A stretch of 50,886 nucleotides of DNA from Verrucomicrobiia bacterium (GTDB lineage: Bacteria; Verrucomicrobiota; Verrucomicrobiia; Limisphaerales; DSYF01): the NCBI GenBank assembly GCA_035765895.1, contig DASTWL010000055.1, forward strand, positions 1 through 50,886. Reading direction: 5' to 3'. Made by a program: the position numbers and the translations under genes. Positions 25,970-31,303 of the stretch are shown here, in pieces (positions within the stretch are counted from its first letter, which is position 1; every line of letters starts with the position of its first letter). The notes beneath the pieces are model-generated. The model was not told where the DNA came from. It ran no database searches and was given only the letters and a program-made list of their open reading frames with translations.

Positions 25970-27229
25970 GTGTCGGAAATCCCAATTGAAAAGGTCCGGG
26001 GAATTCTGGATTCCCTGTATCGCGCGGAGTTCGGCCGCATTCTCGCCACGCTCATCCGATTGCTTGGCGATTTCGATCTGGCCGAGGACGCCGTGCAAGA
26101 TGCCTTTACCGCGGCCTTGGAACGGTGGCCACACGATGGCGTGCCGGCCAATCCCCGCGCCTGGTTGATTTCCACCGGACGGTTCAAAGCCATCGATGCG
26201 CTGCGTCGGCGCGCACGATTCGATGCAGCCCAGGAGGCGATTGCTGAACAACTGGAACCGGGAACGGGCGATGCAGCGCTTGAGACGGACGATGGCATTA
26301 AAGACGACCAGTTGCGGCTCATCTTCACCTGCTGCCATCCCGCACTCGCGCCGGAGGCTCGCGTGGCATTGACCTTGCGGGAAGTCTGTGGTCTGACGAC
26401 CGAGGAAATCGCCCGCGCATTCCTCACGGCGGCACCTACGCTTGCCCAACGGATTGTGCGGGCCAAGGCGAAGATTCGTGACGCCAGAATTCCTTATCAG
26501 GTGCCATCGGTGGAGGAACTGCCCGACCGCTTGGATGCGGTGCTGCAAGTGGTCTATCTGGTTTTCAACGAGGGTTATTCAGCATCGTCGGGCACATCGC
26601 TGACGCGGGCAGAACTTTCAGCGGAAGCCATCCGGCTCGGACGATTGCTGTTGGAGTTATTGCCTGAACCGGAGGTGAGGGGATTGCTCGCGCTGATGCT
26701 CTTGCAGGAATCGCGGCGGGCAGCCAGAACTTCGCCGTCCGGTGAACTGGTTCTTTTGGAGAATCAAGACCGCTCGTTATGGGATCGCGAAAAGATCGCG
26801 GAGGGGGTGAAACTGGTTGAACGGGCATTATTGTCGCGTCGGTTTGGCCCTTACACGCTTCAGGCGGCGATCGCGGCGGTGCATGCCGAAGCATCCGAAG
26901 CTGCGGCAACAGACTGGCCCCAAATCGTAGCGCTTTACAGCGTCCTTGCACGGGCTGACCCCTCGCCGGTTATCGAACTGAATCGCGCCGTGGCCGTGGC
27001 GATGCGCGACGGACCGGAGGCGGGATTGGCGCTGATTGATGCCATTTTCGCGCGTGGTGAGTTGATGGAATATCACCTGGCACACTCGGCCCGGGCAGAT
27101 TTGTGCCGCCAATTGGACAGAAATGACGAGGCCCGTTCTTCCTACCAGCGTGCCTTGTCGCTCGCGCGACAAGAATCGGAACAACGTTTCCTCAAAACCC
27201 GGCTTCAGGAATTGGACGAAAAAAAGTGA
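25970..27229 (+). CDS. ECF42-type RNA polymerase sigma factor with C-terminal TPR-like domain
   Basis: A 419-residue protein starting at GTG 25970. Region sigma-2 lies at about 15-85 (LGDFDLAEDAVQDAFTAALE, PRAWLISTGRFKAIDALRRR) and sigma-4 at about 115-175 (LREVCGLTTEEIARAFLTAA, then LAQRIVRAKAKIRDARIPYQ). A helical C-terminal region of some 230 residues follows (YLVFNEGYSASSGTSLTRAE, LNRAVAVAMRDGPEAGLALI, LDRNDEARSSYQRALSLARQ). That long TPR-like/DUF6596 tail and the neighbouring DGPF genes define ECF42. No anti-sigma gene is present; in this group the tail is thought to be needed for activity. Its stop is 8 bp before an ECF42-like promoter that should drive the DGPF operon. Confidence 0.92.
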   Translation: MSEIPIEKVRGILDSLYRAEFGRILATLIRLLGDFDLAEDAVQDAFTAALERWPHDGVPANPRAWLISTGRFKAIDALRRRARFDAAQEAIAEQLEPGTGDAALETDDGIKDDQLRLIFTCCHPALAPEARVALTLREVCGLTTEEIARAFLTAAPTLAQRIVRAKAKIRDARIPYQVPSVEELPDRLDAVLQVVYLVFNEGYSASSGTSLTRAELSAEAIRLGRLLLELLPEPEVRGLLALMLLQESRRAARTSPSGELVLLENQDRSLWDREKIAEGVKLVERALLSRRFGPYTLQAAIAAVHAEASEAAATDWPQIVALYSVLARADPSPVIELNRAVAVAMRDGPEAGLALIDAIFARGELMEYHLAHSARADLCRQLDRNDEARSSYQRALSLARQESEQRFLKTRLQELDEKK

Positions 27230-27236
27230 GGAGCAC

Positions 27237-27263
27237 TGTCGAATTACGCCAAACCCAATCGAC
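27237..27263 (+). promoter_or_regulatory. Predicted ECF42-dependent promoter of the DGPF operon
   Basis: TGTCGA (27237-27242), then 17 nt, then CGAC (27260-27263). The ECF42 consensus I recall from Streptomyces work is TGTCGA in the -35 region and CG(A/T)C in the -10 region. Measured from TGTC the spacing is N19, the same as the other two sites in this window. It lies between the sigma gene stop and the first DGPF gene, leaving a leader of about 60 nt before ATG 27332. Confidence 0.7.
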
Positions 27264-27331
27264 AAGTTGATGAATGGCCACAGGCCGCAACAACAAAACG
27301 AACAGAACAAACAAAGCAACAGCACAAAACC

Positions 27332-27775
27332 ATGAAATTCCTCATGATGATGATTCCTCGTGTTTACCAGCCGGATACACCTGCTGCGGAAAGGGCCGGC
27401 GAAGGTTTTACGCCTCCGGCCGACGCCGTTGCCAAGATGATGAAGTATAACGAGGAACTGACCCAAGCGGGCGCGCTGGTCGCATTGGATGGGTTGCACC
27501 CCATTGCCAAAGGAGCCCGGGTCAAATTCGGCGAAGGGAAGCCCATCGTCACCGATGGCCCATTTGTCGAGTCGAAGGAGGTGCTCGGTGGCTACTGGAT
27601 TATCCAAGTGAAATCAAAAGAGGAGGCCGTCGAGTGGGCGCGGCGCGTCCCGGCAGCGGCAGGAGACGTGATTGAACTGCGCCAGATCTTTGAAATGTCC
27701 GATTTTCCTCAAGACGTTCAAAAGGCCGCCGACAGTCCCGCGGTGCGCGCCCAAGTTGCGGGAAAGAAGCATTAA
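27332..27775 (+). CDS. DGPF-domain (YCII-related) protein 1
   Basis: A 147-residue YCII/DGPF protein. It opens MKFLMMMIPR and has the name-giving motif at 75-78 within IVTDGPFVESKEVLGGYWII. The fold is a ferredoxin-like alpha/beta barrel that dimerises; small-molecule binding or lyase activity has been suggested for the superfamily, but no reaction is established. DGPF proteins are the standard genomic partners and targets of ECF42 sigma factors, which fits the promoter just upstream. The ATG is preceded by GCACAAAACC, with no Shine-Dalgarno sequence. The second DGPF gene starts 38 bp after its stop. Confidence 0.92.
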   Translation: MKFLMMMIPRVYQPDTPAAERAGEGFTPPADAVAKMMKYNEELTQAGALVALDGLHPIAKGARVKFGEGKPIVTDGPFVESKEVLGGYWIIQVKSKEEAVEWARRVPAAAGDVIELRQIFEMSDFPQDVQKAADSPAVRAQVAGKKH

Positions 27776-27813
27776 CCCGGTTGGCCGAACCCATTGCATA
27801 AAATCCTGATAAA

Positions 27814-28224
27814 ATGAAATACATCTGCCTTGGTTATATCGAACCGAACAAGTTTGAATCGATGTCTGAAAGTGAGCGCAACACGATGTTGGATGAATGC
27901 TTCACCTACGACAACGAGTTGCGGAGGAACGGGCACTTCGCTGGCGGTGAGGCGTTACAGCCCCCGCAGACGGCCACAACCTTGCGCTGGAAAAACGGCA
28001 AAGTGTCCATTACGGACGGCCCCTATGCCGAGACGAAGGAACAAATCGGGGGCATTCTCATTCTTGAAGCTCGAGACCTGAATCACGCCATCCAGTTGAT
28101 GTCAAAACATCCCGGTGTGAAAGCCGGGCCGTTCGAGATACGTCCCGCTGCGGACCTGACTGACATGATCAGCGAAAGTGAACAGCGACGTGTGAACGCA
28201 AGTCAGGGATTCGGAAGGAGGTAA
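27814..28224 (+). CDS. DGPF-domain (YCII-related) protein 2
   Basis: A 136-residue paralogue of the preceding gene, with DGPY at 68-71 in [20 protein letters not shown]. It starts [17 protein letters not shown], the more common form of ECF42-linked DGPF proteins, whereas its neighbour starts MKFLMMM. Two DGPF proteins of different subtypes next to one ECF42 gene is a usual arrangement. It is probably cotranscribed with protein 1 from the site at 27237. The IS3 remnant begins within about 75 bp of its stop, so any former downstream operon members may have been lost. Confidence 0.92.
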
Positions 28225-28297
28225 CGGATCACATACGCAGCGGCGGAGCCTCAGACTGCACCTCCCTGTTTGGAAAGCCGTTTTTCCGCATATCGCT

Positions 28298-28504
28298 GTT
28301 ATCGAATCGTGCTACGACAACGCGCTGATGGAAAGCTTCTGGAGCACCCTCAAGTGCGGCTTGGTCCATCGCACGCACTTTGCCACCCGCGCCCAGGCGC
28401 GGGCGGCGATCTTTGAATGGATTGAAATCTTTTACAACCGGGAGCGGCTCCACAGCGCCCTCGGCTACCAATCCCCTGTGGACTTTGAAACCCAACTAAA
28501 CTAA
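28298..28504 (+). mobile_element. 3' remnant of an IS3-family transposase gene
   Basis: A frame ending at the stop 28504 encodes IESCYDNALMESFWSTLK, then VHRTHFATRAQARAAIFEWI and FYNRERLHSALGYQSPVDFE. This is the C-terminal end of an IS3-type integrase, including the last catalytic glutamate in ALMES. There is no start codon, no N-terminal catalytic domain, no orfA and no recognisable inverted repeats. Only about 68 codons are left. It lies between the DGPF operon and the cupin gene and marks past insertion followed by deletion. Confidence 0.88.
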
Positions 28505-28593: not shown

Positions 28594-29058
28594 ATGAAAA
28601 CATTCCAGGGCTACCAACTCATCGCCCCCGACGACCTGCACTGGCGGCCGTCGAACCTGATGCGCATCCCGAACGCGGATTTTCTGGAGCGCACGGGCAG
28701 CGAGAATCTCAGCGCGCGACTTTGGCGGCTGCCGCCGAAAAGCGCCAACACGCTGCACAAGCACATCCGGCAGGAGGAATTTTATTTCGTGCTCGAAGGC
28801 ACGGGCCGCATGCGCGTGGGCGAGGAGACGTTGACGGTTCCCAAACACGGCGGCGTGCTGGTCGGCCCGGATCAGTTGCGACAGGTTTTCAACGACACCG
28901 ACGCGGACGTGCTCTGGCTCATCGTTGGCGCGCCGGAAGAACTGGAATTTCTGCAAGGCTCCAAGTCCACCGACATGGATTTGAAACTCATCTATCCGAC
29001 CGATCCAACGCAACTGCCCAAGGAACTCGCCGGCGTATCATGGCCGCCAAAGGCGTGA
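28594..29058 (+). CDS. Small cupin-domain protein
   Basis: A 154-residue single-domain cupin. The double-stranded beta-helix motifs are LPPKSANTLHKHIRQEEFYFVLEG (motif 1, with H, H, E as metal ligands) and HGGVLVGPDQLRQVFN (motif 2; the usual histidine is not obvious, Q or N in its place). It may bind a metal and a small ligand; no reaction can be named. ATG 28594 is preferred over 28519 because the extra 25 residues lie outside the fold. The start is preceded by AGCACAACCATC, not a Shine-Dalgarno sequence. It lies between the two ECF modules, with the ECF41-type promoter beginning 45 bp after its stop. Confidence 0.85.
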   Translation: MKTFQGYQLIAPDDLHWRPSNLMRIPNADFLERTGSENLSARLWRLPPKSANTLHKHIRQEEFYFVLEGTGRMRVGEETLTVPKHGGVLVGPDQLRQVFNDTDADVLWLIVGAPEELEFLQGSKSTDMDLKLIYPTDPTQLPKELAGVSWPPKA

Positions 29059-29102: not shown

Positions 29103-29129
29103 TGTCACAGCCGCGGCGGCTGGTTCGTC
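29103..29129 (+). promoter_or_regulatory. Predicted ECF41-dependent promoter of the CMD-sigma operon
   Basis: TGTCACA (29103-29109), a 16-nt spacer, then CGTC (29126-29129). This equals the ECF41 promoter consensus TGTCACA-N16-CGTC as I recall it from published work on Bacillus and Rhodobacter ECF41 proteins. It stands 10 nt before ATG 29140 of the partner gene, so the transcript would be nearly leaderless. The sigma gene would thereby activate its own operon. Confidence 0.82.
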
Positions 29130-29139
29130 TTCCTTGGTG

Positions 29140-29610
29140 ATGAAAACAAATATTGCCAATCTAAACGAACCGCGTCTGAACTATCGCAAAGTGTCGCCGA
29201 CCGTGTTGCAAGCCTTGTGGGGCGTGGAAAAGGCCGTGAACGAAAGCGGGCTGGAAAGTTCCTTGCAGGAACTGGTCAAGCTGCGCGCGTCGCAACTCAA
29301 CGGCTGCGCCTTTTGCATTGATATGCACTATCGCGATGCCCTCAAGGCCGGCGAGGCGGAACAACGCTTGTTTCTGTTGAATGCGTGGGAGGAAGCGCCG
29401 GTTTACACGCCGCGCGAACGGGCGGCGTTGCGCTGGACGGAAGCGCTGACCAAGCTGGCCGGGAATAGTGTCAGCGAGGAACTTTACGAAGCCGTGCGCG
29501 CGGAATTTTCCGAAACCGAACTGGTGAGCCTCACGCTGGCCGTGGTGGCGATCAATAGTTGGAACCGTTTTAGTGTGGGCTTCCGCGTGCCGCCCGGGTT
29601 TACTTTGTGA
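29140..29610 (+). CDS. Carboxymuconolactone decarboxylase-like/AhpD-fold protein (ECF41 partner)
   Basis: A 156-residue all-helical AhpD/CMD-fold protein. The redox-type site GCAFCIDMHYRDALKAGE has cysteines at 56 and 59 and a histidine at 63, as in AhpD-like peroxidase-coupled proteins. It may reduce or scavenge reactive species using a thiol relay. Genes of this family (with oxidoreductases and epimerases, the so-called COE proteins) are the hallmark neighbours and targets of ECF41 sigma factors. ATG 29140 is chosen; in-frame TTG 29134 and GTG 29137 lie inside the predicted transcription start region. Its stop is 4 bp before the sigma start, so the two form an operon. Confidence 0.92.
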   Translation: MKTNIANLNEPRLNYRKVSPTVLQALWGVEKAVNESGLESSLQELVKLRASQLNGCAFCIDMHYRDALKAGEAEQRLFLLNAWEEAPVYTPRERAALRWTEALTKLAGNSVSEELYEAVRAEFSETELVSLTLAVVAINSWNRFSVGFRVPPGFTL

Positions 29611-29614
29611 CGCC

Positions 29615-30481
29615 ATGATCGAATCGTTCAACGCACATCGCGGCCAGTTGTTCGGCATCGCCTATCGGATGCTGGGCAGCGTGGCCGAGGCGGACGACCT
29701 GGTGCAGGAGACGTGGCTGCGCTGGCAGAAGCAGGATTTAGAAAAAGTGTCTTCGCCCAAGGCTTGGTTGATTGCCACGATCACGCGGCTGTGCATTGAT
29801 CAACTGCGGTCCGCGCGGCGCCAGCGCGAGGAATATTACGGCGTCTGGCTGCCGGAACCGCTGGTGGAAAACGCGCCCGCGTCGCCGGAAAATTCGGCGA
29901 TGATTGCGGAGTCGTTGACGATGGCGTTCATGCTGTTGCTCGAAACGCTCGACCCGGTGGAACGCGCGGTCTTCGTGCTACGCGAGGCATTTGATTACGA
30001 TTACGCGGACATCGCCGCCATCGTGGGCAAGAGCGAAGCGAACTGCCGCCAGATCGTGCGGCGCTCCAAACTGCAACTGGCCACGCCGCCCGTGGCGACC
30101 GCTCCGAGCGAGTGCGCGCGGCGCGTGGTGGAGAAATTCATGGCCGCCGCGGCGGGCGGCGAAGTGCGTGACTTGCTGGCTTTGCTGACCGCGGATGCGA
30201 CGCTGTATTCCGACGGCGGCGGACGCGTTTCTGCGGCGGGTCGGCCGATTCACAGCGCGGATCACATCAGCCGGTTTTTCGTCGGCATTCGCGATCGTCA
30301 GCCGGCGGATGTGGCGTTGCGCTTCGTGGCCATCAATGGCCGGCCGGGCGTGTTGATGAGCAGCGGCGGACACATTTTCAACGCGGTTTCGTTCGACTTG
30401 GACGACGAACGGGTTCGCGCTATTTACATCGTGCGCAATCCGGAAAAGTTGAAACATCTGCCGCCCGTGGCGAACAACTGA
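29615..30481 (+). CDS. ECF41-type sigma factor (SigJ-like) with SnoaL-like C-terminal domain
   Basis: A 288-residue protein. Sigma-2 is at about 5-70 (FGIAYRMLGSVAEADDLVQE) and sigma-4 at about 105-155 (LREAFDYDYADIAAIVGKSE). A SnoaL/NTF2-like domain of about 120 residues follows. The three ECF41 signature motifs are all present: WLPEP at 78-82 in the linker, DGGGR at 200-204, and NPEKL near 274 (usually NPDKL). In this group the fused tail replaces an anti-sigma factor and both supports and restrains activity. ATG 29615 fits the family start. It lies between the CMD gene and the ICL/PEPM gene with 4 and 3 bp gaps. Confidence 0.95.
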   Translation: MIESFNAHRGQLFGIAYRMLGSVAEADDLVQETWLRWQKQDLEKVSSPKAWLIATITRLCIDQLRSARRQREEYYGVWLPEPLVENAPASPENSAMIAESLTMAFMLLLETLDPVERAVFVLREAFDYDYADIAAIVGKSEANCRQIVRRSKLQLATPPVATAPSECARRVVEKFMAAAAGGEVRDLLALLTADATLYSDGGGRVSAAGRPIHSADHISRFFVGIRDRQPADVALRFVAINGRPGVLMSSGGHIFNAVSFDLDDERVRAIYIVRNPEKLKHLPPVANN

Positions 30482-30484
30482 TTT

Positions 30485-31303
30485 ATGAACCAGAACGAAA
30501 AAGCGGCACGCTTTCAAGCGTTGCATCAAAGCGGGGAAGTTCTGTTATTTCCCAATCTTTGGGACGGTGGTTCGGCGCGCATGCTGGAACAACTCGGCTT
30601 TCAGGCGCTCGCCACGTCCAGCGGCGCGTGCGCGGCCACGCTCGGCCGACGCGACGGAAAAATCTCCCGTGCCGAAGCGCTGGCGCACTGCCGGCAGATT
30701 GTCGCGGCAACGAATCTGCCGGTCGCGGCGGATTTGGAAAATGGATTTGCGCACGATCCGGCTAGCGTGGCGGAAACCATACGGCTGGCGGCGGAAGTGG
30801 GATTGGTGGGCGGTTCGATTGAAGATTCCAGCGGCGACCAGAACCAGCCGCAATACGATTTGAGCCTGGCTGTGGAACGCATCGTCGCCGCCGTGGAGGC
30901 AGCGAAAGCGTTGCCGTTCAAATTCACGCTCACGGCGCGCGCGGAAAATTTCTTCCGCGGCAAACCGGATTTGTCCGACACCATCCAACGGCTCACAGCC
31001 TACGAGCGGGCCGGCGCGGATGTGCTGTTCGCCCCGGCGTTGCCGGATCTGGCGGCGGTGCGCGAATTGTGTTCCGCCGTGCGGAAGCCGGTGAATTTCA
31101 TGGTGGGCATCAAGGGGAAATCTTTCACGGTCGCGGAACTCACAGCGGCAGGCGTCAAGCGCATCAGTTTCGCGAGTTCGTTGTATCGAACGGCGATGAC
31201 GGGTTTGTTGAACGCGGCCCGGGAAATTAAAACTACCGGCACGTTTGGCTACCTGGAAAACACGCTGACCACACCGCAGTTGAACGAGTTTTTGCGGTCC
31301 TAG
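30485..31303 (+). CDS. Isocitrate lyase/PEP mutase superfamily protein
   Basis: A 272-residue TIM-barrel protein of the ICL/PEPM group. It has FPNLWDGGSARMLEQLGFQA, the metal-binding aspartate region LPVAADLENGF, GLVGGSIEDSSG and FTLTARAENFF. It lacks the KKCGH loop of true isocitrate lyases. It belongs to the short group that includes 2-methylisocitrate-lyase-like and oxaloacetate-decarboxylase-like enzymes acting on C-C or C-P bonds of small 2-oxo acids. It starts 3 bp after the ECF41 sigma stop, so it should be the third gene of that operon. Such a partner is not among the classic ECF41 neighbours I recall. Confidence 0.9.
   Translation: MNQNEKAARFQALHQSGEVLLFPNLWDGGSARMLEQLGFQALATSSGACAATLGRRDGKISRAEALAHCRQIVAATNLPVAADLENGFAHDPASVAETIRLAAEVGLVGGSIEDSSGDQNQPQYDLSLAVERIVAAVEAAKALPFKFTLTARAENFFRGKPDLSDTIQRLTAYERAGADVLFAPALPDLAAVRELCSAVRKPVNFMVGIKGKSFTVAELTAAGVKRISFASSLYRTAMTGLLNAAREIKTTGTFGYLENTLTTPQLNEFLRS

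Follow-up and report, generated by a model that had tools for sequence, protein, structure and literature searches.

A conserved ECF41 promoter before the CMD-sigma factor operon of a Verrucomicrobiia bacterium, with a predicted leaderless CMD mRNA and a probable second target

The ECF41 promoter motif was derived from 285 promoters in a survey that found the group in ten phyla, Verrucomicrobia included, with the motif before the COE gene in 97 of 107 COE-ECF operons (Wecke 2012, PMC3426412). The same work described WLPEP and three motifs of the C-terminal extension, the sequences of the extension motifs being absent from its text. In Rhodobacter sphaeroides, the operon RSP_0606-ecf41Rsp encodes a CxxC CMD protein and an ECF41 sigma factor with a fused C-terminal domain, and is preceded by an exact TGTCACA-N16-CGTC; its mapped transcription start is a G, followed by a leader of 22/23 nt to the ATG (PMC3426412). 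The promoter sequence there places 31 nt between CGTC and ATG, which puts the mapped G at position 9 past CGTC; the leader lengths of 31 and 32 in Table 5 of that paper apparently include the stretch back to the -10 element. Sinorhizobium meliloti, the third studied ECF41 case, has a CMD-ECF41 operon (SMb20029-rpoE9) with the ECF41 motif 9 nt upstream of the mapped start; a single target was reported, and the transcript was not described as leaderless (PMC6180224, PMC3616915). Mycobacterium tuberculosis SigJ (5xe7) also combines sigma2 and sigma4 with a fused C-terminal domain.

The window (the whole stretch of DNA analysed, 50,886 nt) carries a locus of the same plan (Table 1). The CMD protein is closest in the PDB to PA0269 (2ijc/2o4d, E 6e-44, alignment from residue 11) and Atu0492. 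The sigma factor scores 360 bits against the SigX4 profile TIGR02957 (cut-off 323) over positions 1-280 of 281, is homologous to SigJ over residues 3-280 (E 7e-50), and consists of sigma2 and sigma4 with a long fused C-terminal extension. WLPEP, DGGGR and NPEKL are all present, in agreement with a preliminary description of this DNA; at the last motif NPDKL is commoner in relatives and NPEKL is a frequent variant. This protein is the sole ECF41 in the genome, the eight other matches being weak (1.6e-9 or worse) and covering the sigma domains only. The CMD gene is its direct upstream neighbour across a 4-nt gap and qualifies as a COE neighbour, which bears out the CMD-sigma operon of the earlier account. 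Just 3 nt separate the sigma gene from the PEP mutase family gene, which is possibly the third gene of the operon; such a gene is missing beside ECF41 at every other ECF41 locus retrieved.

Table 1. Features of the ECF41 locus (window coordinates)
Feature	Position	Strand	Remarks
-35 element TGTCACA	29103..29109	+	exact ECF41 consensus (Wecke 2012)
Spacer, 16 nt	29110..29125	+	spacer 16 predominant in relatives (15, 16 and 17 all scanned)
-10 element CGTC	29126..29129	+	exact ECF41 consensus
Predicted transcription start region GGTG	29136..29139	+	most likely 29138-29139, leader 0-3 nt
CMD/AhpD-like protein, 156 aa, CxxC (NGCAFCIDMH)	29140..29610	+	PF02627, E 3e-22
ECF41-group sigma factor, 288 aa, fused C-terminal domain	29615..30481	+	TIGR02957
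PEP mutase / isocitrate lyase family protein	30485..31303	+	PF13714, E 9e-76

Among the neighbouring genes (cupin, CMD, PEP mutase, GNAT, second sigma factor and YCII proteins) no anti-sigma factor gene was found, as the proposal of an anti-sigma-free circuit had it. The second sigma factor, likewise extended at its C-terminus (DUF6596, ECF42-like), and the two YCII-type genes that follow it occupy 25970-28224, directly upstream of the ECF41 region, placing two sigma modules without anti-sigma factors next to each other. A nearly palindromic TGTCGA-N17-CGAC (27237-27263) lies some 69 nt upstream of the first YCII gene and resembles ECF42 promoters. It also resembles the RpoE10 sites of S. meliloti (PMC6180224). 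An IS3-type transposase remnant (PF13683/PF13333 integrase core, 28241-28504) separates the YCII genes from the cupin gene (28594-29058), which is on the same strand as the CMD operon and ends 44 nt before the ECF41 promoter; read-through from it into the operon is possible.

The exact motif in front of the CMD gene was confirmed in coordinates and spacer, with a gap of 10 nt between CGTC and the ATG. No second match occurs in the window, where shuffled sequence leads one to expect 0.03. Over the genome (4.64 Mb) three exact matches were found, with a chance expectation between 2.1, calculated from base composition, and 2.7, from scaled dinucleotide shuffles. The genome-wide enrichment that had been suggested as a check is thus missing, with 3 exact sites versus 2-3 expected, and the case for a promoter is therefore made by position and conservation. 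Two of the three exact sites stand directly before COE-type genes, namely the CMD gene of the window and an unlinked gene for an NmrA-like epimerase. The third (contig C72) has no COE gene and was taken as chance; a 34-codon frame lies downstream, followed by an NtrC-like activator gene about 280 nt on.

ECF41 is patchily distributed, occurring in 4 of 97 genomes among the nearest relatives, at least 19 of 388 in a phylum sample and at least 31 of 384 in a class sample (own genome included throughout), the latter two counts being lower bounds as six candidates were scored per genome. The spacer-16 motif with at most two mismatches is present at 32 of 36 Verrucomicrobiota ECF41 loci (exact in 19), which represent about ten families but are not all independent, some sharing a genome or genus. 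The motif precedes the leading gene of the operon, or at one locus (L017) the sigma gene itself, and the proposed check for conservation upstream of orthologous operons came out in favour of the promoter. A good motif is absent at L016/G046 and L054; L016 also has neither WLPEP nor DGGG and is doubtful as an ECF41. The operon partner varies among CMD, a second CxxC protein that is only distantly CMD-like, a flavodoxin-like oxidoreductase and an NmrA-like epimerase, which are the COE classes described in Wecke 2012. The motif followed by an ATG at 7-14 nt gave 23 rows in 32 ECF41-bearing genomes versus 1 for the reversed pattern, one site being listed twice and most rows being the linked loci themselves, since the genomes were chosen for carrying ECF41; only 4 were found in about 93 relatives without ECF41.

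The mapped ECF41 transcripts of S. meliloti and R. sphaeroides start about 9-10 nt after CGTC, which is the reason for placing the start of the CMD transcript as in Table 1. Following an in-frame stop at 29056, the only in-frame CMD starts before the conserved domain are TTG 29134, GTG 29137 and ATG 29140. Given this start position and the lack of another usable start codon, the CMD mRNA should be leaderless if the promoter is used as in the other species, whereas the R. sphaeroides operon has a Shine-Dalgarno sequence within its much longer CGTC-ATG interval. An in-frame ATG at 9-13 nt after CGTC was found for 27 of 35 Verrucomicrobiota targets (4, 10, 6, 6 and 1 at 9, 10, 11, 12 and 13 nt, respectively). 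None has an ATG nearer than 9 nt, and this lower edge agrees with the mapped ECF41 start; at L015 a GTG stands in frame 7 nt after CGTC. The remaining eight comprise the epimerase encoded in the window's own genome and seven others, and the start of that epimerase, 39 nt after CGTC, indicates that not every member of the regulon has the leaderless geometry. In a set of 32 COE genes from other phyla, almost every plausible start lies 28-61 nt after CGTC, often behind a purine-rich, GGAG-like Shine-Dalgarno sequence, and where one of the few nearer ATGs occurs a later in-frame start is also present. The difference in spacing between Verrucomicrobiota and other phyla has a Fisher P of about 2e-9, with two of the others counted as leaderless and phylogeny not corrected for. 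In those cases from Xanthomonadaceae, Burkholderiales and some actinobacteria in which the sigma gene comes immediately behind the motif, its ATG lies 8-9 nt after CGTC, and leaderless ECF41 transcripts would thus not be confined to one phylum. A partial literature search returned no report linking ECF41 with leaderless transcripts and none of leaderless genes in Verrucomicrobia.

Two further observations concern the region after the -10 element. The sequence TTGGTGATG (window 29134-29142; also at L019 and L073) recurs there in several Verrucomicrobiota, and GGTG is also found around the mapped start in R. sphaeroides, possibly as an initiator preference. At L031 (~888-916) and L038 (~993-1020) the COE start lies about 30 nt after CGTC, and a short frame, whose ATG follows CGTC at 4-6 nt, shares an ATGA overlap with the COE start codon. 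Such frames could possibly encode leader peptides, themselves leaderless and translationally coupled to the COE gene. The idea is suggestive but was set aside, since L032 departs from the pattern and the numbers are too small.

The exact site before the unlinked epimerase gene (C3:24293-24319, minus strand) has no ECF41 nearby. The closest ECF41 in the order (G086, 59% identity to that of the window) has a homologous epimerase gene directly upstream, with the exact motif. The epimerase homologues in G065 and G069 have no motif, and no ECF41 was found in either genome, making a natural control of four genomes. In G275, an exact site also precedes an epimerase gene on a contig different from that of its ECF41 genes. 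From these sequence comparisons the window sigma factor probably also drives the C3 epimerase gene, which we read as a COE gene, unlinked or become so, that kept its ECF41 promoter. Exact motifs with ATG at 10-11 nt also stand before a cupin gene (L073, G694) and a TetR gene (L078, G351), both unlinked to ECF41; neither was counted as a target, since genomes lacking ECF41 also show such sites, at a rate of about one per 20-25 genomes.

Several alternative explanations were weighed. A fortuitous motif, with the operon read from another promoter, would suit the two to three exact matches expected at this genome size, but the site is kept in position and sequence at nearly all of the orthologous loci, and this reading is almost certainly wrong. 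The CMD protein could instead belong to the signalling, as an anti-sigma factor or sensor, in keeping with its place as first gene of the operon and its frequent pairing with ECF41. However, no signalling role of COE proteins was seen by Wecke 2012 (PMC3426412), and in relatives epimerase or flavodoxin-like proteins occupy the place of CMD, which renders such a role very improbable. It is also improbable that a genuine promoter is followed by an ordinary leader, with the CMD protein starting at a later codon. Poor conservation of the residues ahead of position 11 speaks for this, but the next in-frame start, GTG 29191, corresponds to residue 18, inside the region in which solved homologues align from residue 11, and many families share an ATG at 9-13 nt.

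The epimerase site might likewise be a chance occurrence, leaving a single-target circuit as in R. sphaeroides, Bacillus licheniformis and S. meliloti. The single target in all three studied species and a number of exact sites equal to chance speak for this; but a chance site would seldom fall directly before a COE-type gene, the ECF41-linked homologue has the site while homologues in genomes without ECF41 do not, and G275 repeats the arrangement on another contig. We regard a chance epimerase site as rather unlikely and retain the epimerase as the probable second target.

Therefore, we propose that the window site is very likely the promoter of an ECF41 circuit, with the leaderless CMD mRNA and the probable epimerase target as parts of it. 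The sigma factor would direct RNA polymerase to TGTCACA-N16-CGTC, and transcription would cover the CMD gene, the sigma gene and possibly the PEP mutase gene. By transcribing its own gene the sigma factor would activate itself; autoregulation, as put forward in the preliminary description, is the most likely wiring. Its activity would be held by its own fused C-terminal domain in place of a separate anti-sigma factor, a mechanism reviewed in PMC8999054. Transcription is predicted to begin at 29138-29139, which would put the CMD start codon at the extreme 5' end for leaderless translation, and the same sigma factor would probably drive the epimerase gene on contig C3. The view of the locus as far removed from the organisms that served to define the motif is not supported, as Verrucomicrobia are among the ten phyla of Wecke 2012, and the novelty claimed on that ground is weak. 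The points that go beyond the earlier account are that the mRNA is probably leaderless, that an unlinked epimerase gene has an exact site as well, and that the operon may include a third gene.

These results confirm an ECF41 promoter in a poorly studied lineage. A second target in trans, which is likely here, would break with the rule of a single target that three species had suggested. In a leaderless mRNA the promoter fixes the start codon, so that predictions of start site and start codon check each other. For the Verrucomicrobiota at large, we lean towards an ECF41 regulon that is leaderless across CMD, flavodoxin-like oxidoreductase and epimerase genes and can include unlinked COE genes; if this is true, induction by an ECF41 sigma factor would be tied to leaderless translation.
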